A DNA stretch of 64,000 bases from Terriglobales bacterium (GTDB lineage: Bacteria; Acidobacteriota; Terriglobia; Bryobacterales; Bryobacteraceae): NCBI GenBank assembly GCA_027485675.1, contig JAIXQP010000041.1, forward strand, positions 124,001-188,000. The letters are read 5' to 3'. Both the position numbers and the translations under genes were made by a program. The notes below the pieces were generated by a model, which worked only from the letters and a program-made list of their open reading frames with translations, was not told the DNA's origin and ran no database searches. Below, piece after piece: positions 10,045 to 25,178 of this stretch. How positions within the stretch are numbered: position 1 is the first letter of the stretch; every line of letters begins with the position of its first letter.

Positions 10045-10050
10045 GGCCAG

Positions 10051-12018
10051 ATGGGCCGAATTCGCGTTCTCCCGGACGCAGTAGCGAATCAGATTGCGGC
10101 AGGCGAGGTGGTGGAACGCCCCGCCTCCGTCGTCAAGGAGATGCTGGAGAACTCCTTGGACGCGGGCGCTTCGGCGATTCGCGTCGAAGCCGAAAGCGGC
10201 GGCCGCCGGCTGATCCGGATCACCGATGACGGCCACGGGATGCTGCGCGACGATGCGTTGCTGGCCTTTGAACGCCACGCTACCTCCAAATTGTCTGCGC
10301 TTAAGGACCTGCAGTCGATTGCGACTCTCGGCTTTCGCGGAGAGGCGTTGCCGTCCATCGCGAGTGTCTCGCGCCTGACGCTCGAAACCCGCTCACCGGA
10401 GGAGACCACCGGCACGCGCGTCGAAATCCACGGCGGCAAGATGATCAAGTGTGAGGAGGCCGCCCTGGCGGCCGGCACCATCCTCACAGTGCGCGATCTC
10501 TTCTTCAATGTTCCGCCCCGGAAGAAGTTCCTCCGGTCCGACCAGACCGAACTCGCGCACATTGCGTCGCTCGTCACCCACTATTCGCTGGCGCATCCGG
10601 ATAAGACCTTCGAGCTCTATCACGACTACCGCGAGTTGCTGCAGGTCACCCCGGTCGCCAGCTTACGGGAGCGCGTTTTTCAGGTGTTTGGCGCGCAGGT
10701 GCTCGATGACGTGATCGACCTCGGCGCCCGGGAGGTGGAACTGAAACTGCCGGCTCCGCATCCGCAGTCCGAAGCGGCCGCGCCGGAGGATCTGGTCCGC
10801 CCGTTTCTTCTCCGTGGCTTCGTTTCGCGCCCGCAGGTGCAGAAGTACAATCGCAGCTCCATCTATCTGTTCGTCAACGGCCGCCTGATTAAAGACCGCC
10901 TGCTGCTCCACGCCATCTCCGCCGCCTACTACAACCTGATGCCGCCCGGCGCGTATCCCTTTGCGTTGCTGTTTCTCGATTGCGACGCCGAAGAGGTCGA
11001 TGTCAACGTCCATCCCTCGAAGACCGAGGTCCGCTTCCGGCACAGCTCCTTCGTCCATGACTTTGTCCGGGACGCCATCCGGGGATCGCTGATCGAAAGC
11101 CGGCCGGCCTCGGCCCTGCCGCTTCCGGAGCCGCCGCGCGCGCAACCGGCCGCGGCGCTGCCCTATTCGGAGTTCACCCAAACGCTCGAGAACGCCCGGC
11201 TCGAACTGCCCGAGTGGCGCAGCGTGCTGCCGGAGCCGCCGGCCGGGGCGCTCGGCGTCAACGATGCCGACTTGCCCGTGTTTTCCGGCGGAAGAGTGAC
11301 GGCGACCGTCCCGCCGCCCGTCCCTTCCGCGCCCGCGCCGCTCCCGGTGGATGCCGCCCCCTCCCGGCTCAAGGTGCCCAATCATCACGGCGGCGCCCCC
11401 GCGGGGGTGCACCTCGATGGGATGCCGAGCCTGGACGTTCTCAAAGATCTCCGGCCAATCGGCCAACTGCACGAAAGCTTTATCATCGCGGCCGGGCGGG
11501 ACGGGCTCTGGATCGTCGACCAGCACGTTGCTCACGAACGGATTCTTTTTGAGCAGGTGCTGAAGCAACGGGCGGCGGGGCGGCTTGAAAAGCAACAATT
11601 GCTGATCCCCATGGTCGTCGAACTGACGGCCAGCCAGCAGATTGAGTACGCGCGCATCGCCGACGAACTGGCCGCCAACGGCTTTGAAAGCGAGCCGTTC
11701 GGCAACCGGACCATTGCGATCAAAACCGCGCCCGTCGACGTGAAGCCGTCGCAGATCGAGTCGATTCTGTTTGAGATTTTGGAAGTGGCCGAGCGCGAGT
11801 TGCGCGGGGCGAGCCTCGATGAGTTGCGGCGCAACATCGCGGCCTCAATCGCCTGCCAGGCAGCGATCAAGATCAACATGCGGCTCGATCAAACCCGCAT
11901 GGACTGGCTGCTGGCGCGGCTCGCCGAGTGCGAGTATCCCACCAACTGCCCGCATGGCCGACCGATTGCCCTGCGCTATTCGACGCGCGAGATCCTGAAG
12001 GGCTTTCACCGCATCTAG
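10051..12018 (+). CDS. mutL: DNA mismatch repair protein MutL
   Basis: Mismatch-repair ATPase of 655 residues. The N-terminal GHKL ATPase motifs are present: EMLENSLDAGA, DDGHGM and GFRGEALPSIASV. A transducer domain, a Pro-rich linker (about residues 350-450) and the MutL C-terminal dimerisation domain follow. The C-terminal domain carries DQHVAHERILFE, matching the latent-endonuclease pattern DQHA-x2-E-x4-E with Ala replaced by Val. It also carries CPHGRP, so this is probably the nicking form found in bacteria without MutH. It starts 6 bases after the TolC-like gene and ends overlapping the convergent caspase gene by 4 bases. Confidence 0.97.
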   Translation: MGRIRVLPDAVANQIAAGEVVERPASVVKEMLENSLDAGASAIRVEAESGGRRLIRITDDGHGMLRDDALLAFERHATSKLSALKDLQSIATLGFRGEALPSIASVSRLTLETRSPEETTGTRVEIHGGKMIKCEEAALAAGTILTVRDLFFNVPPRKKFLRSDQTELAHIASLVTHYSLAHPDKTFELYHDYRELLQVTPVASLRERVFQVFGAQVLDDVIDLGAREVELKLPAPHPQSEAAAPEDLVRPFLLRGFVSRPQVQKYNRSSIYLFVNGRLIKDRLLLHAISAAYYNLMPPGAYPFALLFLDCDAEEVDVNVHPSKTEVRFRHSSFVHDFVRDAIRGSLIESRPASALPLPEPPRAQPAAALPYSEFTQTLENARLELPEWRSVLPEPPAGALGVNDADLPVFSGGRVTATVPPPVPSAPAPLPVDAAPSRLKVPNHHGGAPAGVHLDGMPSLDVLKDLRPIGQLHESFIIAAGRDGLWIVDQHVAHERILFEQVLKQRAAGRLEKQQLLIPMVVELTASQQIEYARIADELAANGFESEPFGNRTIAIKTAPVDVKPSQIESILFEILEVAERELRGASLDELRRNIAASIACQAAIKINMRLDQTRMDWLLARLAECEYPTNCPHGRPIALRYSTREILKGFHRI

Positions 12019-14093
12019 CGGAGAGCTGCTTCGATCGCCTGCACGTTCTTCTTGGCGTAGTCGCTCTCGGTCAGGTCAGGATTCAGATCGAGCATCCGGC
12101 GGAAGTGCTTCAGCGCGGCGGCGTAGAGTTCCACGCTCTGCTTCTTCTGGGCGCTGCGGGCGTAGCTCAAGGCCAGCACGTAGTGCGAGTAGGGGTCCTG
12201 CGGGTCGTAGCGCAGCGCGCGCTGGCAGTAGCCGATGGCGGCTTCGAAGTTCTCGCGCTTCCGCTCGCAGTCGCACAGGCCGAAGTACGCCATACTGCGC
12301 AGGTCGGCCCAGACGTCCCGCTGCGCCGCCCGCTTCTTCTTGCCGATTCCGGCCAGGTAGCCCAGGACATAGTAGTTGAGCTTGCCGGCCAGCTTCGCGT
12401 CGAAGTCGCTGAGGGCGAGATACTGCTGGTAGGAACCGACCGAGGGAGCGTACTGTCCGCTCATCCGCTGGCTTTCCGCGAGCCAGAAATAGGCGTCGGC
12501 GTTCTGCGGCGCCAGGCTGATCGCTTGCCGCGCCGACTCGATGGACTGGGGATAAAGCTCCTTGATCCGCTGCGCCTGCGCGAGGAGATACCAGGCCGTG
12601 GCCTGTTTCTTATCGCGCTGGACCACTTGATTTAACTGCCGGATCGCTTCGTCGTAGCTGCCGTTATCGAGCAAAAGCCCGCCGAATGTCGCGCGGGCTT
12701 CCAAATAGTCCGGATCGATTTCGAGCGCCTTGCGAAACGATTTCTCCGCTTCTTCGACCTCAAATAAATCCCGCTGCACGCGGCCCAAATACAGCCAGGC
12801 CTGCGAAAACTGCGGATCGGCCGCCACGGCGGCCTGCAGCTCCGCGGCCGCCTTTTTGTAGTTCTCCGGCGTTCCCTTGTTGTAGAAGTCGAGGCCTTTT
12901 TCGAGGGAATCGAGCGCCGCCTTCGGCCGCCGCCGCGGAATACTGATCTTAATAGTGACCGTGGATTCCTGCCCCGGATAAACCGTTTCTTCACGCGGAC
13001 CATCGGGTTCGTAGCCCATCCGGACGCCTTTAACCGTGTGCGCGCCGGGCGACAGACCGGGCAGCCGGAGCGGCGTGCCCTTGCTCACCGTCCCAACGGA
13101 CTTGCCGTCCACAAAGACTTCTACGTTGTCCATGTTGGCTTCGAGCACCCAGGTGCCGAACTTGGGCGCGGGCGCTTCACCGGGCGAGGTACCGGTGGGA
13201 TTAAACGCCAGCAGCATCTGGGCATCGAAGTTGCCCTTGTCGGAGGTCGGGTTCTGCTGGCCCTTGGTGGCTTCGCGGACATTGGTGCGCACGTACTCGG
13301 CCAGTTCATCCGCGGTGACGATGCCGTCCTTCGAAGCATCGGCGTAGCCTTCCATGCCGCGGACCACGTAGTAGGTGAAAATGCCATGGCCGCCGCCCCA
13401 GTCTTTCGATTCGAAGGAGCGCTCGCGGGCGCGGCTGGCGGTCATCGAGAACATGGAACGGTTGAGATCGAGCAGGGAACGGTTGACGACTTCGCCCTGC
13501 TCCGGGGAGATGGCCCCGCTATGGCAGGAGTCCGTCAGCAGCACTTTCCACTTGGCCTGCACCTGGCTGCCGATCACGAGTCCGAGCTGGTCCATGCCAT
13601 AGCCGGTGCCGGCAATATTCTTGGGGTCCAGATCATAGGGCGCCAAAAACGCCCGGCCCGAAGTGGGGTCAACGAAGCCGTGTCCGGCGAAGTAGACCAG
13701 CACGCGGTCTTCCGGCTTGGCCACGCTCGGTAGCCAGCCATCGATCTCTTTGCGGAGGTTGGCGAGCGTGGCGCGGGCGCCGGTCAGCTTCCGCACGTTC
13801 TCCGCGCGGAAGTTGCCGCCTTCGGGGCTGATCAGCACGGAGTAGATGGCTTCGGCGTCCCGTTCGGCGAACTCGAGCTTGGCGCTCGCGGGCAGGTTCT
13901 GGTAGTCCCCAATGCCGACGACGAGCGCGTAGCTGCGAGGAATGGCGACCCCGGCCGCGGCGGGGGTGATGGGTTCCGGGTCTTTTTCGTACTTGAGATC
14001 GCGCGCTTTCTTCTGCGCCGGAGGCGTCGGCGCGGCCGGAGTCTGTCCCCAGGCTAGGGCGGCAATCGTAAGGAGGATCGAAAGGGGTTTCAT
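12015..14093 (-). CDS. Secreted caspase-family (C14) peptidase with PEGA and TPR domains
   Basis: Protein of 692 residues with a signal peptide (about 1-16). The p20-like caspase domain covers about 50-290, with its catalytic pair in FAGHG (His138) and DSCHSG (Cys190), both intact. A PEGA-type beta domain follows (about 310-372: VEVFVDGKSVGTVSKGTP), then at least six tetratricopeptide repeats to the C-terminus. Caspase-like peptidases cut after Lys, Arg or Asp. The TPRs and export signal suggest a periplasmic or surface role with protein partners. AGGAA about 6 bases before the ATG supports the start. It is the last gene of a three-gene minus-strand operon, 12 bases after a DUF4384 protein. 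Confidence 0.93.
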   Translation of the reverse strand: MKPLSILLTIAALAWGQTPAAPTPPAQKKARDLKYEKDPEPITPAAAGVAIPRSYALVVGIGDYQNLPASAKLEFAERDAEAIYSVLISPEGGNFRAENVRKLTGARATLANLRKEIDGWLPSVAKPEDRVLVYFAGHGFVDPTSGRAFLAPYDLDPKNIAGTGYGMDQLGLVIGSQVQAKWKVLLTDSCHSGAISPEQGEVVNRSLLDLNRSMFSMTASRARERSFESKDWGGGHGIFTYYVVRGMEGYADASKDGIVTADELAEYVRTNVREATKGQQNPTSDKGNFDAQMLLAFNPTGTSPGEAPAPKFGTWVLEANMDNVEVFVDGKSVGTVSKGTPLRLPGLSPGAHTVKGVRMGYEPDGPREETVYPGQESTVTIKISIPRRRPKAALDSLEKGLDFYNKGTPENYKKAAAELQAAVAADPQFSQAWLYLGRVQRDLFEVEEAEKSFRKALEIDPDYLEARATFGGLLLDNGSYDEAIRQLNQVVQRDKKQATAWYLLAQAQRIKELYPQSIESARQAISLAPQNADAYFWLAESQRMSGQYAPSVGSYQQYLALSDFDAKLAGKLNYYVLGYLAGIGKKKRAAQRDVWADLRSMAYFGLCDCERKRENFEAAIGYCQRALRYDPQDPYSHYVLALSYARSAQKKQSVELYAAALKHFRRMLDLNPDLTESDYAKKNVQAIEAALR

Positions 14094-14105
14094 GGCGATT
14101 CCTGG

Positions 14106-14744
14106 TTAACGATGCGCGAGGCGGAACTGATAGGTGAACAGCCCGGGCTTCTCCGCATTGGCCACTGGGGGCGCGGCGACCACGGCGGCCTGATCCTTGC
14201 GCAAGAACAGCAGTTCGCGGGAGCGGAAGCCGGGCACCTCGTTCTTCTTCAGTCCAGCGCTCGTGTCAACACATTCGCCGCGAGCTTTCCAGATACCATC
14301 GTCGCAGCGGGGCCGCAGATTCGCCGGAGCCTTGCCGGGCGCCGGTGGCGGCGGCAGCGGCTTGTATCGCGGAGCCTCACCTCCCAGCTTCACCGGCGAA
14401 ACGATCCAGTAAACCGTATCGTAGCCGGCCGGGCCGGTGAGCTTGAAAGCGCCCTGATCGCCGGGGATGTAGTATTCGCGGTTCGCTTCCACCCGGTTGT
14501 CCATGCCGGCGTCGGCCGAAGGAAACAGCGTGGCGGTCTCGCCGGAAGTGCCCTCATTCACCACGTAGAGATAGCCTGCCGTGTTGGACTTAAAGCGGAA
14601 CCGGACCTGGTCGCCCGTGGCGAAGACATGCCCGGGGTCGGACACCTTCCAGGCGCCGGCATCGCGACGTTCGAGCGAGATCTCCACGCGCTGCTGGGCC
14701 GCGAGAGAGGAGGCAAAGAAGAGGGCAAGCGCCAGGCGTTTCAT
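14106..14744 (-). CDS. Exported DUF4384 domain protein
   Basis: Protein of 212 residues with a signal peptide (MKRLALALFFASSLAAQQ). A single DUF4384-type domain covers about 25-120, recognisable by GDQVRFRFKSNTAGYLYVV, the TLFPS motif and EYYIPGD. The C-terminal third carries an isolated Cys pair (RPRCDDG and GECVD) and has no domain I recognise. DUF4384 domains are often found beside or fused to caspase-like peptidases; here the caspase gene lies 12 bases downstream and a second DUF4384 gene 10 bases upstream. Likely a periplasmic sensor, substrate or chaperone of the caspase (inference). Confidence 0.85.
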   Translation of the reverse strand: MKRLALALFFASSLAAQQRVEISLERRDAGAWKVSDPGHVFATGDQVRFRFKSNTAGYLYVVNEGTSGETATLFPSADAGMDNRVEANREYYIPGDQGAFKLTGPAGYDTVYWIVSPVKLGGEAPRYKPLPPPPAPGKAPANLRPRCDDGIWKARGECVDTSAGLKKNEVPGFRSRELLFLRKDQAAVVAAPPVANAEKPGLFTYQFRLAHR

Positions 14745-14754
14745 GCGGGAGTCC

Positions 14755-15615
14755 TTAGCGGTGTTTCAGGCTGAGGTCCACGATCAGCTTCGCGTCGGGG
14801 GCCGGGTTCTTGTTGACGATGTAGGCGGCCGTCTCCTTGCGTTCGGGCGTCAGCGGTTTGGAGTCATCGACCTTCTCAAAGACCAGATCGCGCGCGACCA
14901 GGGTGCTGCGCACGCGGCCGACCAACTGATCATCGATGGGGCGGACCATCTGCGCCAGTTGCAGCTGCTTCGTCGGTTTGGGTTCCTGGGGAGTTGGTTG
15001 TGCGGGTGAATTGATCTTGTAGATCAGGTCTTCCAGATTCGCTTCCGGCTTCCGCGCCAGGACGATGAAAAGCTTTTCTTCGCCGGCTTGATCGTCGAAG
15101 TAGAAACGGCCGGTGCCCGGCACCATGTAGGGGCGAAAGGGCGCGATGAAGTTGTTGCCGTTCTCGACCTCCGAAGACGGGAACAGGACGCTCCAGTTGC
15201 CGCTCGAACCCCGGGCGACGACATAAAGATAGGCGCCTTCGTTGGACTCCACTTGAATTTTCAGCCGATCGCCAGAGCGGAAAATGCTATCGGTATCCAC
15301 TTCGCGATAGGCGGCGTTCTCGCGGCTGAGCAGGATGCTGTAACGGAGGCCAAGGGGCGTCGGCGTAGCGGCGGAAGCCAACACCACGGGGGCCTCGGCG
15401 GCGGCGGCCGGCGTGGCGGGTGCGGCCGGGCCCTTGGGCTGATTCCGGACCGGCGGGGCCGGTTTCGCCTGCGACACAGATTTAGTGACTGGTTTTGTGT
15501 CTGCTTTTCGAGTTACCTTAACGGGCGACCCTGGTGCTGAGAAAAAAAGCTCCCGCGGAGTCAGGTCCTGGGCGGTTAAGACCCCTGCTAGAGCGAAAAA
15601 ATTTAGGATACGCAT
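14755..15615 (-). CDS. Exported DUF4384 domain protein
   Basis: First gene of the caspase operon, 286 residues, with a signal peptide (MRILNFFALAGVLTAQ). A Pro/Ala/Lys-rich linker runs to about residue 85. The DUF4384 domain covers about 90-205, with GDRLKIQVESNEGAYLYVV, the VLFPSS motif and a PYMVPGTG turn. A C-terminal region with TLVARDLVFEKVD follows. It is a paralogue of the next gene, sharing the same domain core but with different tails. Its ATG overlaps the start of the divergent Ig-like gene within a CATG, so each promoter must lie inside the other coding region or the starts are further in. Confidence 0.85.
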   Translation of the reverse strand: MRILNFFALAGVLTAQDLTPRELFFSAPGSPVKVTRKADTKPVTKSVSQAKPAPPVRNQPKGPAAPATPAAAAEAPVVLASAATPTPLGLRYSILLSRENAAYREVDTDSIFRSGDRLKIQVESNEGAYLYVVARGSSGNWSVLFPSSEVENGNNFIAPFRPYMVPGTGRFYFDDQAGEEKLFIVLARKPEANLEDLIYKINSPAQPTPQEPKPTKQLQLAQMVRPIDDQLVGRVRSTLVARDLVFEKVDDSKPLTPERKETAAYIVNKNPAPDAKLIVDLSLKHR

Positions 15616-16300
15616 GGATTTTAAACCTTATTTCACGAACAAGTTTCAATGTTCCCGTTCGTGCCGTCCGATTCATAAGACGGGCAAAAGAGCTGCGGAG
15701 TTGCTTGGCAGGCAGATTATCGCCCTCGCGCTGCTGTTAACCATAATCGCGCAATCGAACGGACTGGCCCATCAACAAGCCGGGGAAGCCATTAAGAAAC
15801 TGAATATCGTGATTGTAGAAGGTGAAGGCGCCGTAAACAATGCCCGGCAACGCGTAGCCCGCGATCCGATTGTGCAGGTAGAGGATGAAAATCGAAAGCC
15901 GGTGGCGGGAGCCGCGGTGGTGTTTCTGTTGCCCAATCAGGGAGCGGGAGCAACCTTCGCCAACGGGGCGCGGTCGCTGACTGTGCTGACGGATAGTAAC
16001 GGGCAAGCCGCGGCGCGGGGATTGCAGGCCAACCGGCTCACCGGAGAGTATCAGATGCGGGTCACCGCCTCGTCTAACGGGCAGACGGCGAGCATCTCCA
16101 TTGGGATGAGCAATATCGCCGCCGCCGCCGGGGCCGGCGCGGCTGGGCTGGGAGCTCTGAAGTGGCTCCTCATCGTCGGCGCTGTTGGCGGCGCGGCGGC
16201 AGCCACCGGAGTGGTGCTCAGCAATGGTGGAAACACACCCGCAGGCCCGCGGCCGACGGTCATCGCGCCGGGCACGCCGAGCGTAGGAGCTCCGCAATGA
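15614..16300 (+). CDS. Ig-like (Big_1-like) membrane protein of unknown function
   Basis: About 228 residues. A charged N-terminus is followed by a hydrophobic export or anchor helix (about 34-50, IIALALLLTIIAQ). Next comes an Ig-like beta domain resembling bacterial Ig group 1 (PIVQVEDENRKPVAGAAVVF and LTDSNGQA), then a C-terminal hydrophobic Gly/Ala-rich helix (about 175-207) and a Pro-rich tail. AGGA five bases before the ATG at 15614 supports this start, which overlaps the divergent start on the other strand. Its stop overlaps the next gene as ATGA, so the two are translationally coupled. Function unknown; a surface or envelope role is likely. Confidence 0.8.
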   Translation: MDFKPYFTNKFQCSRSCRPIHKTGKRAAELLGRQIIALALLLTIIAQSNGLAHQQAGEAIKKLNIVIVEGEGAVNNARQRVARDPIVQVEDENRKPVAGAAVVFLLPNQGAGATFANGARSLTVLTDSNGQAAARGLQANRLTGEYQMRVTASSNGQTASISIGMSNIAAAAGAGAAGLGALKWLLIVGAVGGAAAATGVVLSNGGNTPAGPRPTVIAPGTPSVGAPQ

Positions 16301-17169
16301 AACGGAGAAGTTTCTTTCTGGGGATGGTCGCGGCGCCCTTAGCCGCGCAGGAAAGCGGATTGGGCGGGCCGGTGCTTGGCTACCTGCTCGATGGCGAGGG
16401 CCATGTGCGGCCTTTGATCGGCCCGGCCGGCAGCGCCTACCTGGCGCCTGCACTCGCCGGGGAGACCGTGCTGCGCCAGTGGGCCGGCAACTACGGGCTC
16501 GATCCCGACGGCCAACTATATTTCGGGGTGGACGCGCGGCAGTTGCAGCGGGTGGAGACCGAGCCGGGATGGCAGAATTTGATCGGCTCGGCTTCGCCGG
16601 ATGTCGCGCTGGTGCAGCGGGGAGCGCGGGTGGCGATTGCGCGGGCCGGCGCGGCCGGCGCGGCTGTAGAGGTGGGGATGGCGGTGGAGCAGTTGGCGGT
16701 TGGCGGGCGGGGCGAAGCCATCGCCGGTGCGGACAGCGAGCGATTCGCGCTGTGGCGCGCCGATGGCGCCATGGTGTTTCAACGGCCTCTCGCCGGTGTC
16801 CGAGCGTTGCAGGTTTTGCCCGGCGGGGCGGGAGTTTGCGGGTTGGCGGAAGGTTTCTTCCTGGCGAGTGAAGATGGCCACTTCGACATGTTCGATAGCG
16901 TTCGGGGCTCCGCCGTGGCCCTGACGGGCGACGGGTCGACCGTCATAGTTCTGGATCGAGAGGGAATGAAAGTACACGTCTATGCAGTCGCCTCGAAAGA
17001 GTGGCGGGAAGAGAAGATTCCCGTAGCCGGACAAACGCTGACTCCCCTTCGCGACGGGCGCAGCGTTCTAGTATCCGGCGGCGCGGGGGCGCCCTCCTGG
17101 ACGCTCACCGTGCGGGCGGGCGAGCCCGTTTGGGCGCAGATTCCTCTGCTGCGCGGAGGCCGGCTGTAA
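16297..17169 (+). CDS. Tat-type exported beta-propeller-like protein of unknown function
   Basis: About 290 residues. The N-terminus KRRSFFLG followed by MVAAPLAAQE looks like a twin-arginine signal peptide. The rest is made of repeated short strands (GPVLGYLLDGEGHV, LALTGDGSTVIVLDREG, PLRDGRSVLVSGG), the pattern of a WD40/quinoprotein-like propeller, but I cannot assign a family. The ATG overlaps the stop of the Ig-like gene (ATGA), and the TAA overlaps the ATG of the giant repeat gene (TAATG). The three genes therefore form one tightly coupled operon. Confidence 0.78.
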   Translation: MKRRSFFLGMVAAPLAAQESGLGGPVLGYLLDGEGHVRPLIGPAGSAYLAPALAGETVLRQWAGNYGLDPDGQLYFGVDARQLQRVETEPGWQNLIGSASPDVALVQRGARVAIARAGAAGAAVEVGMAVEQLAVGGRGEAIAGADSERFALWRADGAMVFQRPLAGVRALQVLPGGAGVCGLAEGFFLASEDGHFDMFDSVRGSAVALTGDGSTVIVLDREGMKVHVYAVASKEWREEKIPVAGQTLTPLRDGRSVLVSGGAGAPSWTLTVRAGEPVWAQIPLLRGGRL

Positions 17170-20100
17170 TGTCGATCCTTCGTCTTCTCGGTTCCGCCAT
17201 GGCGCTGGCCGCTGCCGCGCTGGCTTTTCCCAATCCGGATGGCAGGTGTCTGATCACCACCGGCGTCACGCTGCCCCAAGGCACTGTCAATGTGGCGCAA
17301 ACCATCACGATTGCGACCTCCACATGTGAACCGCTCACGCGATTTGAGTTGGATGGCGGATCGTTGCCCCCGGGCATGACGCTCAGTTCCTCCACCGGCA
17401 CTATCTCCGGCCAACCCTCGGCCGCGGGCCTCTATGCGTTTTCGATTCGCGTGGTGGACCCCGTGCCGCAGGCCCCGTCAAAGACCTTCGTCCTGCGGAT
17501 CAATAGCGCACTGCAGATTGACCGGCGGATTCTGGCCTCGGCAGGAGCGTCCGGCTCTTCCTACTCCGACCAGATCAGTGTGAGCGGCGGGGTTGGGCCC
17601 TATACGTTCGCCCTCACGGGCTCCCTGCCTCCTGGCTTGACCCTGAACTCCACGACCGGCGCCATTTCCGGCACGATTGGCGGCGGCTTCACGACGCCCG
17701 CTGCCTTCTCGGTGCAGGTGAGTGATGCGAGTTCTCCTGTGAATACGGTGACTTCGGCGTTCCAGATCTCTCCCAATCCCACGCGCAGCCTGGCGACGCT
17801 CACCTTGCCGAACGGTACGCAGAGCTCGTCTTACAGCGCGACCATTTCTCTCGCCACCGGTACCGGAGGAACGTTCCTCCTCGCCGATGGCGCCCTGCCC
17901 GCCGGCTTGACGTTGAACCCCACCACCGGGGTCCTGAGTGGCACTCCGACCGCGAGTGGCTCGTTCTGGTTCACTGTCCAGTCCCGCCTGCTCACCGGGG
18001 GAAGCGTATCTTCGGCCTGGCGGACTTACAACATTCTGATCAGCAACTTAACCGGACTGCAGTTTACGACCGGCACGACCCCACCCGGGGCGGAGATTGC
18101 GGCGGCCTACCGGGCGCTGCTCAGCCCCATCGGCGGCGTCGCTCCCTTTACTTACTCGCTGGATGAGGGTTCGCTGCCGTCGGGCGTCACCCTCGACACC
18201 GCCACGGGCTTGTTGCACGGCGATGTGGCCCTGACGACGGCCCCGTCCTTTACCGCCACGTTGCAGGTAACGGACGCCCGGGGCGCCACGGCCTCGCAGC
18301 GCTTCACGTTTCCGATCGTGTCCCGCCTGACTACCTCTTCGTTCACGATTCCAACGGGTACCGTCGGCGTGTCCTATTCCAGCACGACCATGACGACCGT
18401 TGGTGGTTCTGCCCCCATCACCTTTGGCGTGGACCCGTTTGGCGACAGCCTGCCTCCCGGCCTCAGCCTCAATCCGGCGACGGGTGTCCTGAGTGGCACG
18501 CCGACCGAGTCCGGCTTCTTCGCACTCCGCCTCTTCGCCAAGGATCAACTGGGCGGCTACGCGTTCGCCAACACTTCCGTCTCCATCGTATTGCCGATGA
18601 CCTTTACGGCGACGAGTCCCTTGGCCGACTACGCGGCCAGCGGCGGCTTCTATTTTGGCAGCGTTGCCGCCACCGGTGGCGTCTTGCCATATACGTACAC
18701 CCTTGCTTCGGGAGCTTTGCCGCCCGGCTTCGGCTTGAGTCCCTTGTATGGCTTCCTCTCGGGAAGTTCCACGGCGATTGGCCCCTACAGTTTCGCGATT
18801 CGGGTGACCGATAGCGAGGGCCGCACCGCGACCCGCTCCTTCACCATGAATGTGGTGTCAACCGTGGCGGTAAGTACAGGAAGCTTGGCCAACGGCACCG
18901 TGGGCGAATCCTACTCGCAGGAGATTGTGGCGCAGGGCGCCCCCACGACGTTCGTCTGGTCAGTGTCGACCGGGACCCTTCCTCCGGGACTCGCGCTCGG
19001 GACCACCACAGGCGTCCTCTCCGGTACGCCGACAACCGCTGGAACGTATACTTTCAGCATCCGCATCGCTAGGGCCGACGGAGAGGGGCCCGCCAACGTC
19101 CGGGCGTTCCAGGTCATCATCTCCCCCCCGTTGCAGTTCACCACCACGTCGCCGCTCCCTCCGGGCGGTATCGGCAATTCCTACTCCGCCACGCTGAAAG
19201 CTTCCGGCGGCCGGCCCCCGTACCGGTTTGGGCTTGTGGAGGTGAGTTTTCCGACTGGTTTGTCTCTCGCCGGATCTGGGGTCGTCTCCGGAATTCCGCA
19301 ATCGATCTCTAGCGGGTCGACCCTTGTGCAAGTCTTTGACGCGGACAACCGGTCCGCTGGCCGGAGCTTCAGCCTCCCGATTGGACCCGGGATTCGGTTC
19401 ACCACCTCCTGGCTCCCGAACGGCACCCGAGCGGCCGCCTACAGCCAAACCGCGACCGCCACGGGAGGCACCGGCGCCCTCACGTATACGCTGGCCTCGG
19501 GCACCCTGCCGAACGGGGTGACGCTGAACTCCTCGAGCGGCGCTCTCACCGGCACCCCGACCGTCGCCAACACGTTCAACTTCACGCTGCGGGCCACCGA
19601 CACGGTGGGCGTCACGGAAACGCAAGCGTTCACGGTCACCATCGCCGAGCCCCTGACGTTTGTCACCACTTCACCCATTCCGAATGCCGCGCTCAACGCC
19701 TCCTACGCGCAAGCCTTTGCCGTGGGCGGCGGGCGTGCGCCGGTGCTCTACTCGATCGTCAGTAACCCGCCACCGGCCATCCTCGGCATGGCTCCAGCGG
19801 GCAGCTTCGGCGGCTTCCCCATCGTGACGGGCACCTATTCCATGACCGTACAGGCGCGCGACGCCGACGGCCGCACCGTGCAAAGCGCCTTCCAGCACAC
19901 CGTGGGCGGCCCTCCGCTGCTCAGCGGCACTCTGCCGGCGGGAACCGTGGGGCAGGCCTACTCCCAAACCGTTCCGCTCACCGGTGGGCTGGCTCCCTAC
20001 GCCTTCACTCTCGTCGCCAGTTCGCTGCCCGCGGGCTTGACCTTGAATGCCACCACGGGAGTGATCTCCGGTACCCCCTCCGCGGCGGGAAGCACGGACG

Positions 20101-23100
20101 TAACCGTCCTGGTAACGGACTCGACCGGGTTGCAGGACACGCGGGTGTACACCCTGCAGATCTTGAATCCGCTCGTCGTCACCCCGTCCACCTTGCCGAA
20201 CGGAACCGTCGGGACGGTGTATAGCTCCGGGGTCTCCACGACCGGCGCGGTCGGTTCGGCCACCTTTGCTGTCACGACCGGCGCCCTGCCCGCGGGAATC
20301 AGCTTAAACCCGACCACCGGCGCGTTGACCGGCACCCCGACCACGGCGGGAAGCGTAACGTTTACCATTACGGCTACCGACGGCGTGCCGCGCACGGCAT
20401 CCGCGACCTACACGGTGACCATCGCGAGTGGCTTCACCATTACGACGACGACTCTCCCGTCGGGAATCGTCGGCATCGCCTACTCGGGCCTGATTCAGGT
20501 GCAAGGCAATCTCGCCGCGGCGACGTTTGCGGTGACCACCGGCAGTCTCCCCGCCGGCCTCACGCTGAACCCGTCGACCGGGCTTATCAGCGGCACGCCC
20601 ACGGGCGCCGGTAGCACGTTTACCATCACCGCCACCGATCCGCCTTCAACGACCGCGCAGCGGAGCTTCACCATCACCATCTCCCCGGCGTTTACCATCA
20701 GCACCGTGACGTTGCCGGACGGGGCCATCGGGACTCCCTACAGTGCCACGTTGCAAACGCAGAACTCCCGCGGCACGGTCAGCTTCGAGGTCGTCAGCGG
20801 CACTCTGCCGCCCGGCCTGTCTCTCAATACCAACAGCGGCGTCATCAGCGGCAACCCCACGACGAACGGGCCGCGCACCTTTACGATTCGCGCGACCGAC
20901 ACGGAATTCCTGACCGCGGATTCCACCGGCCCCGGGATCCGCAACGTCAACCAGATCGCGGAGCGAACCTACACCGTCACCATCGGCGGCTCGTTCGCGA
21001 TCAGCACCACCAGCCTGCCGAACGGAATCGTCTCGATTTCCTATACCGCACCGCTGCAAACGCTGAATGGCAATGCCCCCGTGACGTTTGCCGTCACGAG
21101 TGGCGCCCTGCCGCCCGGCTTAACACTCAACGGCAGCACCGGTGTCCTCAGCGGAACGCCCACGGCGGCCGGCAACAGCACCTTCACGGTATCCGCGACC
21201 GATGCGCAGCAACAGACCGCGCAGCGGAGCCTCACCATCACCATCTCCCCGGCGTTCACCATCACCACCCTGACGTTGCCGGACGGGGCGATCGGGACAC
21301 CGTACAACGCGACCGTGCAAACGCAGAATGCGCAGGGAACGGTCACCTTCCAGGTCGTCAGCGGCAGTCTGCCGCCAGGCCTTTCCCTGAACGCTAACAC
21401 CGGCGTCATCAGCGGTAACCCCAATACGAACGGGCCGCGCACCTTCACGATTCGCGCCACCGACACAGAAACCCTGCTCCGCGATACGAGCGGCCCGGGA
21501 ATCCGCAACGTCGACCAGATTGCGGAGCGGACCTATACCGTCACCATCGGTGGCGCCTTCTCGATCAGCACCACCACCCTGCCGAACGGAAACGTCTCGA
21601 CTCCGTACTCGGTAACGCTGCAAACGCTGAACGGCAATCCCGCCGTGACGTTCGCCGTCACCAGCGGCGCCCTGCCGCCCGGCCTAACTCTCAATGCCAA
21701 CACCGGTGTCATCAGCGGCACGCCCACGGCCATCGCCAACAGCACCTTCACGGTAACCGCGACCGATGCGCGGGAGCAGACCGCGCAGCGGAGCTTCACC
21801 ATCGCCATCGCCGGCGTGTTCAGCTTCACCTCCACCACCCTGCCGAACGGCTCTCTGGGTGTTCCCTACTCGGCGACCCTGCAAACGCAGAACTCGCAGG
21901 CCCAGGTCACTTTCCAGATCCTGCAGGGCCAGCTTCCGCCCGGACTGACGCTGAACACCAGTACCGGCCTGATCAGCGGCACGCCTACCCAGAATGGGGT
22001 GAGCACCTTCACCGTCCGCGCCACGGATTCCACTCCTCCCAACCTGCTCGAAGCCGGCAAGCGGGGTCGGGCCGTGGACCAGATTGCCGAAGCAACGTTC
22101 TCCATCACCATCGGTGGAACCTTCGCCATCACGACGACCGCGCTGCCGCCGGGAACCGTGGCCGACCCCTACAGCACGACCCTGGCCACCGCGAACGCGG
22201 TCGGCGCCGTCCGCTTCCAGGTCACCACCGGCACCCTCCCCGCCGGCCTGACCCTGGCCCCCACCACGGGCGTCATCAGTGGCACGCCCTCCGCGAGCGG
22301 AACGTTCCCCGTCACGGTAACCGCCACCGATGCTCAGGAACGGACCGCCACGCGGGACCTAACGCTGACCATCCTGCCCCGGTTCGTTATCACCACCACG
22401 TCGCTGGCCAACGGGACCGTCGGCGTCGTCTACAACGCGACCGTCGTCACGCAGGGAGCGGCGGGCACCCCTTCCTTCACCCTCCTTTCCGCCGGCTCCC
22501 TGCCGCCGGGTCTCACCTTGAATCCCAGGACCGGGGCCATCACCGGAACGCCCACGCAACCCGGCACCACCACGTTCCGCATTGTGGCGGAGGACTCGGT
22601 GCAGTCGGAGTCGCGTACCGACGAAGTGTCGCTGTCCATCACCGTAAATGCCTCATTGCTGAGCATCACGACGAGTTCGCTGCCGCGCGCCACCGCGGGC
22701 GTGGCGTACTCCCAAACCTTTGCGGCCACGGGCGGCACGCCGCCGTATCGCTGGACCATCGCAAGCGGCAGCCTGCCGCCGAACCTGACCCTGAACAATG
22801 CCTCCGGTGTCCTTAGCGGCGTCCTGGTGCAGGGCGGCGTGTCCACGTTTACCGTCCGAGTTACCGACGGCGCCGGCAGCACGGCGGACCGCCCGTTCAC
22901 GCTCGAAACCGTCACGCAAATCGGCATCACCGCCAACGTGTTCCCCCTCGAACAGGGCCAGTTCTTCTCCTCGCCGGTAACGGTCTTCGGCGGCCGGCCT
23001 CCGTATCAGGTCTCCATCCTGAGTGGTGCGCCGCCGCCTGGTATCGCCTACTCGGCGGCGAACGCCACTTTCAGCGGCACCACCAGTGCCCCCGCCGGGC

Positions 23101-25178
23101 AGTTCTCGGTGGTGGTGCAGGCGGTGGATAGCCTGGAGCAGGTAGCAACCCAGACGCTGTTGTTCAACGTCACCGCACCTGGTCCGGCGCCGCTCGGCAT
23201 CACGCCGTCCAGTCTCCCGAACGGCGTGGTTGGGGTGGCCTACTCGGCGCAGTTGGGTACGACGGGCGGCGTGCCGCCCTTCGGATTCCGGCTCTCGCAG
23301 GGCAGCCTGCCTCCCGGCATTACTTTGGACGGTGCCGGAACCTTCGGCGGCGTTCCCTCGCAGCCGGGCGCCTTTACCTTTGGCGTCCTCGCGACCGATG
23401 GCGGCGGACGCTCGGCCGGCCAACTGTTTACGATCCTGGTCACCGCTCCGGTCGTCCCGCTGGCCGTCACCCCGGAGACGCTGCCTGGCGGAGTGATCAA
23501 TCAGGCCTACAGTGCGAGCCTGGGAGCCTCGGGCGGCCAAGCGCCGTATCGCTTCAATCTGACCGGCGATCTGCCTCCCGGCGTCGTCTTCACCAGCAGC
23601 GGAGCGCTGGTGGGTACGCCTACTGGTGTTGGCACCTTCCGGTTCACGTTTGAGGTCACCGATGCGCGGAATACCCGCGCCTCGCGCAGCTTCTCCATTA
23701 CGATTCTGGGCCCGGTGGAGATCACCACCGCCGCGTTGCGGGATGCCGTGGTAGGCGCGCCCTTTGGCGCGCAGGTCGAAGCCGCGGGCGGGATCGCTCC
23801 CTACACCTTTGGCTTTGGCGGGTTGCCGGCGGGACTCCTCGGCGCCACGAACGGCTCAATCTCCGGCACGCCCACCGCCGCGGGAACCTTCACCGTGACG
23901 GCCGAGGTGACGGACTCGCGGGGGCAACGCGCCTCCCGGACTCTTTCCTTGACCGTCGTGGCCCGCTTGACGATTACCAGTTCGCCCGGCGCCGCCCCGG
24001 TGCCGCTCGGCCAGGCGATCAGTGGCGGGTTTGCCGCTGCCGGCGGTCGGCCGCCGTATCAATGGGCGGTCACCAGCGGCGCGCTGCCCCCCGGCGTTGG
24101 CTTCGTTTCGACAACGGGTGCTTTGTCCGGTGCGCCCACCGCGGAGGGTAGCTTCACGTTCGGCGTCACGGTCACCGACTCGTTGCAGAATACGGCAACC
24201 GGTTCGGCCACCATTCGTGTCCTGCCGCCGCTCGCCGTCAACGCCGCCAACCTGCCCGGTGGCGTCGTGGGCACGGCCTACGGATCGAGCGTCGGCGCCA
24301 CCGGCGGACAAGCGCCGTACAGCTTCTCGGTTGTCGATGGTTCGCTGCCTCCCGGGGTCACGCTCGGGACCGATGGATCGCTCACCGGAACGCCCACCGC
24401 CGCCGGCGGCTTCGGCTTCACGGTGCAGGTGGCGGATGTCGTGGGCAGCCGCGCCACCCGCGCCTTCTCCATTGCCATCGCTCTGCCGCCGGTGCCGCCC
24501 ATCAGCTTCGTGGGCGCTCCGCCTACGATTCAGACCGGCCAGCAAGGCACCATCACGGTGCAGATTGCGAGCGTCTATCCCGTGCCGATCAACGGTACCC
24601 TGACGCTGCAGTTCACGCCCAACTCCAGCAACCCCATTGACGATCCGGCGGTGCAGCTGACCTCCGGCGGACGCGCCGTGACGTTCACCATTCCGGCTGG
24701 CCAAACCAACGCGCAGTTCCCGCTGGACCCGTTACGGTTCCAGGTGGGAACCGTGGCCGGACAGGTGCAGTTGCAGACCACCTTCACCCCGGTCGGCGGC
24801 CAGCCAACGCCGGGGCCGACCATCACGGTCACCATCCCGCGGGCGGCGCCGGTGATCACGGCGGCCTCGCTCACCCAGGGTACGGGCGGCTTCTCGTTGA
24901 CCGTGGAGGGCTTCTCGAACACCCGCGAGGTGTCGAGCATGACCCTCCAGTTCAACCCGGCGCCGGGCAGCAGCCTCGAAACAACCACGGTGACGGTGCC
25001 GGTAACGGCGGCCTTCAACGCGTGGTACAACTCGGCCGGCTCGCAACCCTTCGGCGGCGGCTTCCGGTTGACTCTGCCGTTGACGGTGACCGGTGAACTC
25101 AGCGCGGTGGAGTCGGTGGTGGTGCGGCTGACGAACAGCGTCGGCGAATCCCAGCCGTTTACCGCTCGTAGAAACTAA
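17169..25178 (+). CDS. Giant secreted protein with 27 putative-Ig (He_PIG) repeats
   Basis: 2669 residues. A signal peptide (about 1-19) is followed by 27 tandem units of about 80-100 residues, each with the He_PIG/cadherin-like core SLPPGLTLNxxTGxISGTPT. I counted 27 such cores, from about residue 60 to 2420. A unique C-terminal region of about 230 residues follows, ending VRLTNSVGESQPFTARRN; there is no LPXTG or obvious membrane anchor. Such proteins are usually adhesins or extracellular matrix components. The start is the ATG overlapping the previous stop. The central units form a precise higher-order repeat, listed separately. The 3' end overlaps rsmD by 20 bases. Substrate and partner unknown. 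Confidence 0.92.
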   Translation: MSILRLLGSAMALAAAALAFPNPDGRCLITTGVTLPQGTVNVAQTITIATSTCEPLTRFELDGGSLPPGMTLSSSTGTISGQPSAAGLYAFSIRVVDPVPQAPSKTFVLRINSALQIDRRILASAGASGSSYSDQISVSGGVGPYTFALTGSLPPGLTLNSTTGAISGTIGGGFTTPAAFSVQVSDASSPVNTVTSAFQISPNPTRSLATLTLPNGTQSSSYSATISLATGTGGTFLLADGALPAGLTLNPTTGVLSGTPTASGSFWFTVQSRLLTGGSVSSAWRTYNILISNLTGLQFTTGTTPPGAEIAAAYRALLSPIGGVAPFTYSLDEGSLPSGVTLDTATGLLHGDVALTTAPSFTATLQVTDARGATASQRFTFPIVSRLTTSSFTIPTGTVGVSYSSTTMTTVGGSAPITFGVDPFGDSLPPGLSLNPATGVLSGTPTESGFFALRLFAKDQLGGYAFANTSVSIVLPMTFTATSPLADYAASGGFYFGSVAATGGVLPYTYTLASGALPPGFGLSPLYGFLSGSSTAIGPYSFAIRVTDSEGRTATRSFTMNVVSTVAVSTGSLANGTVGESYSQEIVAQGAPTTFVWSVSTGTLPPGLALGTTTGVLSGTPTTAGTYTFSIRIARADGEGPANVRAFQVIISPPLQFTTTSPLPPGGIGNSYSATLKASGGRPPYRFGLVEVSFPTGLSLAGSGVVSGIPQSISSGSTLVQVFDADNRSAGRSFSLPIGPGIRFTTSWLPNGTRAAAYSQTATATGGTGALTYTLASGTLPNGVTLNSSSGALTGTPTVANTFNFTLRATDTVGVTETQAFTVTIAEPLTFVTTSPIPNAALNASYAQAFAVGGGRAPVLYSIVSNPPPAILGMAPAGSFGGFPIVTGTYSMTVQARDADGRTVQSAFQHTVGGPPLLSGTLPAGTVGQAYSQTVPLTGGLAPYAFTLVASSLPAGLTLNATTGVISGTPSAAGSTDVTVLVTDSTGLQDTRVYTLQILNPLVVTPSTLPNGTVGTVYSSGVSTTGAVGSATFAVTTGALPAGISLNPTTGALTGTPTTAGSVTFTITATDGVPRTASATYTVTIASGFTITTTTLPSGIVGIAYSGLIQVQGNLAAATFAVTTGSLPAGLTLNPSTGLISGTPTGAGSTFTITATDPPSTTAQRSFTITISPAFTISTVTLPDGAIGTPYSATLQTQNSRGTVSFEVVSGTLPPGLSLNTNSGVISGNPTTNGPRTFTIRATDTEFLTADSTGPGIRNVNQIAERTYTVTIGGSFAISTTSLPNGIVSISYTAPLQTLNGNAPVTFAVTSGALPPGLTLNGSTGVLSGTPTAAGNSTFTVSATDAQQQTAQRSLTITISPAFTITTLTLPDGAIGTPYNATVQTQNAQGTVTFQVVSGSLPPGLSLNANTGVISGNPNTNGPRTFTIRATDTETLLRDTSGPGIRNVDQIAERTYTVTIGGAFSISTTTLPNGNVSTPYSVTLQTLNGNPAVTFAVTSGALPPGLTLNANTGVISGTPTAIANSTFTVTATDAREQTAQRSFTIAIAGVFSFTSTTLPNGSLGVPYSATLQTQNSQAQVTFQILQGQLPPGLTLNTSTGLISGTPTQNGVSTFTVRATDSTPPNLLEAGKRGRAVDQIAEATFSITIGGTFAITTTALPPGTVADPYSTTLATANAVGAVRFQVTTGTLPAGLTLAPTTGVISGTPSASGTFPVTVTATDAQERTATRDLTLTILPRFVITTTSLANGTVGVVYNATVVTQGAAGTPSFTLLSAGSLPPGLTLNPRTGAITGTPTQPGTTTFRIVAEDSVQSESRTDEVSLSITVNASLLSITTSSLPRATAGVAYSQTFAATGGTPPYRWTIASGSLPPNLTLNNASGVLSGVLVQGGVSTFTVRVTDGAGSTADRPFTLETVTQIGITANVFPLEQGQFFSSPVTVFGGRPPYQVSILSGAPPPGIAYSAANATFSGTTSAPAGQFSVVVQAVDSLEQVATQTLLFNVTAPGPAPLGITPSSLPNGVVGVAYSAQLGTTGGVPPFGFRLSQGSLPPGITLDGAGTFGGVPSQPGAFTFGVLATDGGGRSAGQLFTILVTAPVVPLAVTPETLPGGVINQAYSASLGASGGQAPYRFNLTGDLPPGVVFTSSGALVGTPTGVGTFRFTFEVTDARNTRASRSFSITILGPVEITTAALRDAVVGAPFGAQVEAAGGIAPYTFGFGGLPAGLLGATNGSISGTPTAAGTFTVTAEVTDSRGQRASRTLSLTVVARLTITSSPGAAPVPLGQAISGGFAAAGGRPPYQWAVTSGALPPGVGFVSTTGALSGAPTAEGSFTFGVTVTDSLQNTATGSATIRVLPPLAVNAANLPGGVVGTAYGSSVGATGGQAPYSFSVVDGSLPPGVTLGTDGSLTGTPTAAGGFGFTVQVADVVGSRATRAFSIAIALPPVPPISFVGAPPTIQTGQQGTITVQIASVYPVPINGTLTLQFTPNSSNPIDDPAVQLTSGGRAVTFTIPAGQTNAQFPLDPLRFQVGTVAGQVQLQTTFTPVGGQPTPGPTITVTIPRAAPVITAASLTQGTGGFSLTVEGFSNTREVSSMTLQFNPAPGSSLETTTVTVPVTAAFNAWYNSAGSQPFGGGFRLTLPLTVTGELSAVESVVVRLTNSVGESQPFTARRN
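20691..22382 (+). repeat. Three tandem 564-base higher-order units inside the giant Ig-repeat gene
   Basis: Three consecutive blocks, 20691-21254, 21255-21818 and 21819-22382, each contain one long Ig unit of 303 bases and one short unit of 261 bases. Unit boundaries were read at the TTC/TTT codon that opens each FxIxTxxLP strand: 20691, 20994, 21255, 21819, 22122 and 22383 on direct inspection. The long units share an extra linker around GPGIRNVDQIAE, diverged in the third copy. The first two blocks are nearly identical over long stretches and the third is more diverged, which points to duplication of a two-unit module. Confidence 0.85.

Follow-up and report, generated by a model that had tools for sequence, protein, structure and literature searches.

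We analysed a window of 64,000 nucleotides (64 kb, the whole stretch of DNA studied here) from a Terriglobales bacterium of the Bryobacteraceae, whose genome comprises 6.59 Mb in 54 contigs. The window was found to contain two divergent operons with six genes at positions 12015-25178. The minus-strand operon, CASP-D1-D2, encodes a caspase-fold protease and two DUF4384 proteins, whereas the plus-strand operon, ANCH-PROP-GIANT, encodes a putative membrane-held protein with an immunoglobulin (Ig)-like domain, a beta-propeller and a giant Ig-repeat protein. The list of open reading frames (ORFs) contained all six genes exactly where an earlier note on this DNA had placed them. The features of the locus are as follows.

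12015..14093, minus strand: CASP, a C14 protease of 692 amino acids with an export-like N terminus
13524..13526, minus strand: codon of the catalytic Cys190 of CASP (DSCHSG), Cys in 91/91 aligned rows
13680..13682, minus strand: codon of the catalytic His138 of CASP (YFAGHGF), His in 90/90 aligned rows that reach this position
14106..14744, minus strand: D1, a DUF4384 protein (4.9e-17) with an export-like N terminus
14755..15615, minus strand: D2, a paralogous DUF4384 protein (1.9e-12) that begins with an export-like sequence and is encoded first in the minus-strand operon
15613..15616, no strand: CATG, in which the start of D2 and the annotated start of ANCH overlap
15614..16300, plus strand: ANCH, with a signal-like sequence, one Big_1-like Ig domain, a Gly/Ala-rich hydrophobic segment and the tail PGTPxVGxP
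15821..15868, plus strand: loop of ANCH, residues 70-85 (GEGAVNNARQRVARDP), with Arg80 and Arg83, a candidate cleavage or recognition site
16297..17169, plus strand: PROP, a beta-propeller with an export-like N terminus
17169..25178, plus strand: GIANT, an Ig-repeat protein of 2669 amino acids with 27 He_PIG stretches and a signal-like N terminus
24474..25178, plus strand: C-terminal module (CTD) of GIANT, a conserved two-domain module of two Ig/fibronectin type III (FnIII)-like sandwiches

The genes of the plus-strand operon overlap by ATGA (ANCH/PROP) and TAATG (PROP/GIANT). The sharing of one CATG by the two divergent start codons, to which the earlier note had drawn attention, is real; among eight loci inspected (two of them, L064 and L217, from one genome) it was found in six different genomes including that of the window, with no match in L221. 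The part of the claim that concerns ANCH is less firm, as translation of ANCH may in fact begin at an internal codon, because the first ~30 residues diverge among relatives and an internal Met lies immediately upstream of the hydrophobic stretch in L218 and L219. All six proteins have export-like N termini. The six-gene block is flanked by mutL on one side and by rsmD-recG on the other, and no RNA families or tRNAs were found in the window. The 3' ends of mutL and CASP share four bases on opposite strands (12015-12018), and the adjacent OEP-mutL pair was also seen in a genome of the same genus (G004, locus L064).

The pairing of the two operons was surveyed in 150 genomes of the family, which were searched with CASP and ANCH and in which the surroundings of the matches were annotated with ANCH, PROP and CTD profiles that derive from the very loci surveyed. 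The tally covered 78 caspase loci, 42-95% identical to CASP, with two loci (G021 and G149) excluded as too short and lower-ranking fragments not included. ANCH was present at 40 of them and absent from 19 despite at least 9 kb of upstream sequence, and the remaining 19 were too short. The arrangement that the earlier note had proposed to seek in relatives was found there: the operons are neighbours at 40/59 judgeable loci from 23 genera (39/59 from 22 genera without the doubtful locus L117). The 40 linked loci comprised 38 with the divergent arrangement, 30 with PROP and 36 with a CTD or He_PIG protein. DUF4384 genes accompanied the caspase at nearly all of the 78 loci, with at least two genes in 65 and at least one in 74. 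Further caspases, 37-42% identical to CASP, stood beside ANCH in 10/11 cases, the eleventh locus being too short, and their gene orders were on the same strand (L181-L185, L191), divergent (L186, L188, L190) or convergent (L189). The operon pairing recurs beyond chance.

On a tree of 90 caspases, built by a quick method with a midpoint root, the linked label changed 15 times, against 29.6 times when the labels were shuffled, and linked loci were found on both sides of the deepest split drawn. The simplest reading of the tree is an old linkage, with losses in one large and a few other groups. An additional scan gave eight loci, six of them from close relatives (metagenome-assembled genomes labelled Acidobacteria, Bryobacteraceae or Candidatus Sulfopaludibacter); five of these six had the divergent arrangement and one lay on a contig that was too short. 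The other two were distant Bacteroidetes matches with no ANCH, PROP or CTD in the stretch. The flanks of the block raise the question of mere synteny, since rsmD-recG was found on the same side of it in six loci (L064, L078, L080, L081, L124, and L125) and the six genes might be unrelated neighbours that have merely stayed together for a long time without a shared function. This explanation is very improbable: the outer neighbours were not detected in the remaining annotated loci, where the inner genes remain together, and the further caspases keep ANCH beside them in separate arrangements. In a genome of another family (G211), DUF4384, ANCH, PROP, CTD and caspase genes all lie inside ~16 kb.

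The presence of the two partners was also correlated across the 150 genomes. A close ANCH was found in 79/89 caspase-positive and in 5/61 caspase-negative genomes, counts that ignore kinship and rest on a table compiled by hand, with three edge fragments scored as caspase-positive and with a threshold for a close ANCH (E < 1e-34) that was picked after viewing the lists. All ten genomes without any ANCH also lacked the caspase (10/10). The caspase and the close ANCH were jointly absent from single members of genera g1 (G078), g28 (G091) and g55 (G146) and from two members of g37 (G037 and G123). The joint absence in g28 is not explained by one deletion, because its sister genome G028 carries the caspase and ANCH on different contigs. 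Since the operons are neighbours in relatives and tend to be present or absent together in the genomes surveyed, we consider it highly probable that the caspase operon and the surface-module operon are functionally coupled.

CASP scored above the curated cut-off of Peptidase_C14 (PF00656; 5.1e-13, 49.7 bits against a cut-off of 21.4). Its p20 domain covers residues ~54-285 and is followed by a PEGA domain (313-387) and by TPRs in the C-terminal half (Pfam). The alignment contained 91 caspases, one of them a truncated row without the His region. The earlier note had described His138 and Cys190 as intact, and the dyad proved to be kept throughout the aligned rows; because of this invariance, conservation speaks for CASP being an active protease. 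Asp188, which precedes the Cys motif, was also invariant (91/91 rows). From the orthocaspase literature we take a residue of this type to favour Arg or Lys specificity, and CASP is probably Arg-specific. CASP remained below the cut-off of the EACC1-associated caspase NF047832 (87.2 bits against 140). In PADLOC, it matched a generic caspase model (7.4e-12), with two weak matches in the TPR part, and D1, D2, ANCH, PROP and GIANT were without any match. A known anti-phage defence system was therefore rejected, as the partners fit no system catalogued in PADLOC.

The C-terminal part of D1 contains two Cys residues, which recurred among the D1 rows listed. Pseudo-orthocaspase proteins include a clade in which DUF4384 is reported, and the domain has also been described alongside kinases (PMC6426788). 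Long ORFs near the caspase locus in L090, L093 and L098 contain DUF4384-like regions and also match a Ser/Thr kinase query. Around the caspase operons that lack ANCH, unknown neighbour families each recurred at no more than 5 of 30 compared loci.

ANCH had Pfam matches below the cut-off throughout, the best being Big_1 and CarboxypepD_reg, and its C-terminal tail PGTPxVGxP was conserved in the alignment. In the loop of residues 70-85, Arg80 and Arg83 were invariant in 62/62 rows from caspase-bearing genomes, and residue 84 was acidic in 60/62, three divergent rows (L117, L119, and L122) having been excluded. The resulting R-[ED] motif was counted in rows that could be placed by a simple pattern. 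It was found in 38/40 rows from linked loci and in 22/23 rows from genomes that carry the caspase and have the module at another place; caspase-negative genomes gave 4/13 rows (placed from 16 loci), and the paralogues of the window's own genome 0/2. A 448-residue ANCH-like ORF with two ANCH matches inside was seen right after the caspase gene in L181 (10067-11410).

The minus-strand genes could also form an independent envelope-stress or cell-death protease system that shares only a divergent promoter and its regulation with the surface operon. The abutting divergent starts suggest shared control, and discussions of bacterial caspase homologues often treat them as death proteases (PMC3501461). 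The operons were apart in 19/59 judgeable loci; in two of these genomes (G013 and G083) ANCH lay 16-18 kb away on the same contig, and at 13 other loci the ANCH-PROP module was elsewhere in the genome, so that at least 13 of these genomes carry it at a distance. However, the same-strand and convergent orders of the further caspases beside ANCH leave no shared divergent promoter, the joint absence in g28 concerns genes that lie on different contigs in the sister genome, and the ANCH motif accompanies the presence of the caspase. We regard such independence as unlikely.

PROP had no Pfam match. It was assigned to the beta-propellers by a profile comparison with solved structures, by an AlphaFold2 (AF2) model with a mean predicted local distance difference test (pLDDT) score of 91, and by Foldseek. 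The earlier note had called it a Tat-exported propeller; the fold was confirmed, and the twin-arginine signal was not conserved, since, among 63 PROP rows from relatives, 5 had a double Arg within the first 14 residues, and three of these 5 came from the window's genus. Tat export was thus rejected as a trait of the PROP family.

The last 234 residues of GIANT were modelled as two Ig/FnIII-like sandwiches (AF2 mean pLDDT 94.9), for which Foldseek and VIA-align returned generic Ig/FnIII tandems. In the CTD alignment, whose members come from caspase-bearing neighbourhoods as well as from others, the sole invariant charged residue was Arg151 of the fragment, located in a loop of the AF2 model. 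Of the 2669 residues of GIANT, 4 are Lys and 86 are Arg; no cleavable linker stood out from the Arg and Lys residues listed for the window's protein, the linkers of relatives not being part of this comparison. The protein appears to be a long Ig rod that, if straight, would exceed the periplasm. The CTD was rare outside the family, being found in 4/247 genomes drawn across the phylum (those of the window and of G024 within the family, together with G211 and G223). In L194 (5331-14199), one ANCH-PROP pair was flanked by two He_PIG/CTD proteins. Another He_PIG/CTD protein of the window's genome (L178, G000:C54) has as neighbours a fused TssB-TssC-like ORF and an ORF that looks propeller-like by eye; the three ORFs are as follows.

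8816-12046, 11989-12984 and 14886-16526 of L178: ORFs of this other locus, the TssB-TssC-like one being 40% identical to one in L069

From these observations, a mechanism can be proposed. ANCH, PROP and GIANT would form an envelope or cell-surface module, in which ANCH may be held in the membrane through its C-terminal segment, PROP may serve as a binding platform and GIANT may be a long Ig-repeat rod that ends in the conserved C-terminal module. CASP would be exported and active, and would act outside the cytoplasm on the same side as the secreted D1 and D2. It might cut ANCH within the conserved Arg loop (RQRxAR-E/D), much as gingipains trim beta-sandwich fimbrial proteins. The data show the gene content, the recurrent linkage and the correlated presence, as well as the conserved catalytic site and the propeller and Ig folds; we infer the localisation, the Arg specificity, the substrate and the role of the DUF4384 proteins. 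That CASP, with D1 and D2, matures or regulates the ANCH-PROP-GIANT surface module has, in our judgement, slightly less than an even chance of being right, and that the Arg loop is the cleavage site is possible but rather doubtful. The earlier note had suggested that the caspase processes or polices a surface adhesin, with the DUF4384 proteins as possible sensors or adaptors. Its idea of a connection is supported by linkage and co-presence, and the processing is still something we infer; ANCH would be a likelier substrate than GIANT, because GIANT has few Lys and no linker stood out in it, whereas ANCH has the conserved Arg loop.

Several observations weigh against this proposal. By conservation alone the Arg loop is not special, because the strand that follows it is equally conserved (mean conservation 0.83 for residues 70-85 and 0.82 for residues 86-107, against 0.61 for the remaining Ig domain, 108-165). 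Among the ANCH rows excluded from the loop alignment, L119 has Ser for Arg80, L122 is without Arg83 and L117 is a doubtful ANCH. R-[ED] was found in 0/9 ANCH proteins beside the further caspases, which carry other basic residues at that position. The motif and the caspase both track ANCH ancestry, so that the motif is a lead and not a proof. A close ANCH occurred without the caspase in five genomes (G003, G049, G073, G089, and G114, the last 79% complete), and ten caspase-positive genomes were without a close ANCH. ANCH-CTD modules without such a caspase adjacent are common in relatives, and the window's own genome has one or two, L176 and L177 (the latter without PROP and with a weak caspase-profile match of 81 bits ~5 kb away). 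Because of these modules, the surface module does not, as far as gene content goes, need a CASP-type caspase. Export is assigned from N termini that were assessed visually or with a simple hydropathy rule.

The nearest parallel is found in Porphyromonas. There, several precursors of fimbrial proteins are cleaved by Arg-gingipain behind an Arg at residues 43-54, and in Mfa4 this site lies in the loop that follows the first strands (PMC4789730); gingipains belong to the caspase-like superfamily (PMC3482391). The two systems are alike in combining an exported cysteine protease of the caspase superfamily with exported beta-sandwich surface proteins, and in an Arg site located in the loop that follows the initial strand or strands of the mature protein. 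They are unlike in that CASP is a C14 protease with PEGA and TPR domains and not a gingipain, that cleavage is a proposal in the case of ANCH, and that ANCH has a hydrophobic segment in its C-terminal part and no lipobox visible by eye. The classification of ANCH as a type V (FimA/Mfa) fimbrial protein was rejected, as it matched no fimbrial Pfam family and its best match, Big_1, was below the cut-off.

The sortase PorU of the type IX secretion system (T9SS) has a caspase-like fold. This system, with its PorU sortase and Ig-like CTD, resembles the locus in the signal-like N terminus and the conserved C-terminal Ig-like tandem of large exported proteins (PMC4804311; see also PMC4560394). No T9SS CTD was named among the 50 matches listed by either Foldseek or VIA-align, a negative that carries no weight against such a CTD, and two CTD regions tested matched 0 NCBIfam families. 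PorU (NF033707) had no match in the window's genome, the two control genomes that matched staying below the cut-off, and SprA had no match there or in any control genome. Membership in the T9SS is thus unsupported, with a CTD that has no NCBIfam family and no PorU or SprA match against weak or silent controls.

Bacterial metacaspases and orthocaspases share with CASP a p20 domain with a His-Cys dyad and TPR repeats. In a survey of them, an N-terminal export-like helix was found in a minority and 16 operons had cell-surface functions, and the parts of that paper used here do not name ANCH-PROP-CTD or DUF4384 partners for them (PMC3501461). Caspase-like domains have also been proposed to process exported proteins such as polymorphic toxins and surface proteins (PMC3482391). 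Unlike CASP, which is encoded by a separate gene, the processing peptidases described there are typically a domain inside the processed protein.

Genes of the type VI secretion system (T6SS) recurred near the locus, and the locus could be an accessory contact or envelope-guard module of this system. The Ig-repeat protein would then make or sense contact, the caspase and DUF4384 proteins would react, within the periplasm, to an attack or to firing, and the ancestral order would be TssM-kinase facing CASP-D1-D2 // ANCH-PROP-GIANT. A kinase gene and TssM were found tail to tail with CASP in L070, L126, L129, L131 and L138, and TssM with a TssBC-like ORF follows CASP tail to tail in L069. TssB, TssC, Hcp, TagJ and TssA are divergent from D1 in L085 (G040, of the same family), TssB and TssC lie beside the CTD gene in L188 (G128), and TssK and TssL lie near PROP and CTD in G223. 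In G211, which belongs to another family of the same phylum, D1-D2 are followed by TssK, TssL, TssM and TagJ, with ANCH-PROP-CTD divergent and a 59% identical caspase farther along the locus. The names TssB, TssC, Hcp, TagJ, TssA, TssL and kinase were read from sequences. For TssK and TssM, genome-wide Pfam searches support the names, apart from G040, where TssM was not matched, and G223, which neither search covered. TssM lay less than 11 kb from CASP in seven genomes (G022, G025, G036, G045, G057, G060, and G127) of 50 searched, which were hand-picked with suspected ones included; one or two TssM per ~6 Mb would lead one to expect fewer than one such genome among all 89 caspase-positive ones. 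TssK (E < 1e-30, a threshold likewise picked after viewing the lists) was present in 75/89 caspase-positive and 29/61 caspase-negative genomes, an association that takes no account of relatedness.

Other observations speak against a dependence on this system. The seven genomes form about four or five groups on the caspase tree, 36/40 linked loci were without a core gene of the T6SS, by the queries used, in the available stretch, and a kinase like that of L138 was also found near the locus where no T6SS gene was seen, including three extra stretches. The window's genome (G000) kept the module with 0 matches to TssK (PF05936) and TssM (PF06761), for which the E. coli control matched, and it still has the one TssBC-like ORF of L178. 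G078, of the window's genus, has TssK and lacks the caspase and a close ANCH. Because of these three facts (the window's genome, G078, and the 36/40 loci), the T6SS is, by the gene content of these genomes, a recurrent neighbour and not a requirement, and a role of the locus as its accessory module is improbable. Many T6SS-bearing genomes of the family had two TssK matches, at times a few kb apart (e.g., G001:C118), which to our knowledge is unusual in a standard T6SS cluster. In G211 (L235), two more ORFs were found after the CTD gene, towards the caspase.

17258-18679 of L235: trypsin-like protease ORF with a carboxypeptidase-regulatory-like tail, as read from the sequence
18352-19152 of L235: third DUF4384 protein

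In some relatives, ThiF/E1 adenylyltransferase-like and E2-like genes were found between the two operons, with ~4.5 kb between D2 and ANCH. The loci concerned were L088, L100, L102, L105, L107 and L108, not every locus having both genes among its clustered neighbours; a ThiF/E1-like gene lies at 7676-8938 of L105 and an E2-like gene at 9678-10382 of L102 (names read from sequence).

The preferred reading, in which CASP matures or regulates the surface module, can be carried further, to an Acidobacterial counterpart of Arg-gingipain that builds a surface fibre. A cut at RQRxAR in the first beta-loop would free the first strand of ANCH, whose Ig domains would exchange strands and so build or lock a fibre bearing the propeller and the Ig rod. 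The DUF4384 proteins would gate the protease, and in T6SS lineages the fibre would be a contact device for the weapon. Such an extension, made by analogy, is speculative and quite unlikely; if true, it would mean that bacteria use a caspase to build an organelle on their surface.

Literature on DUF4384 with caspases and on caspases with the T6SS or in Acidobacteria yielded no description of the module in the sources and parts searched, in agreement with the earlier note, which knew of no described system with this set of parts. ANCH-PROP-CTD, a putative three-gene Ig-surface module, is common in this family of soil Acidobacteria. The locus brings together a putatively exported caspase with a strictly conserved dyad and one surface module, and this tie spans many genera and several gene orders. 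It also supplies a recurrent genomic context for DUF4384, a domain whose function is unknown. The roles of bacterial caspase homologues are usually framed as programmed death; the link to a surface module suggests a non-death role here, and Arg80/Arg83 of ANCH offer a concrete candidate site that makes such a function directly testable.

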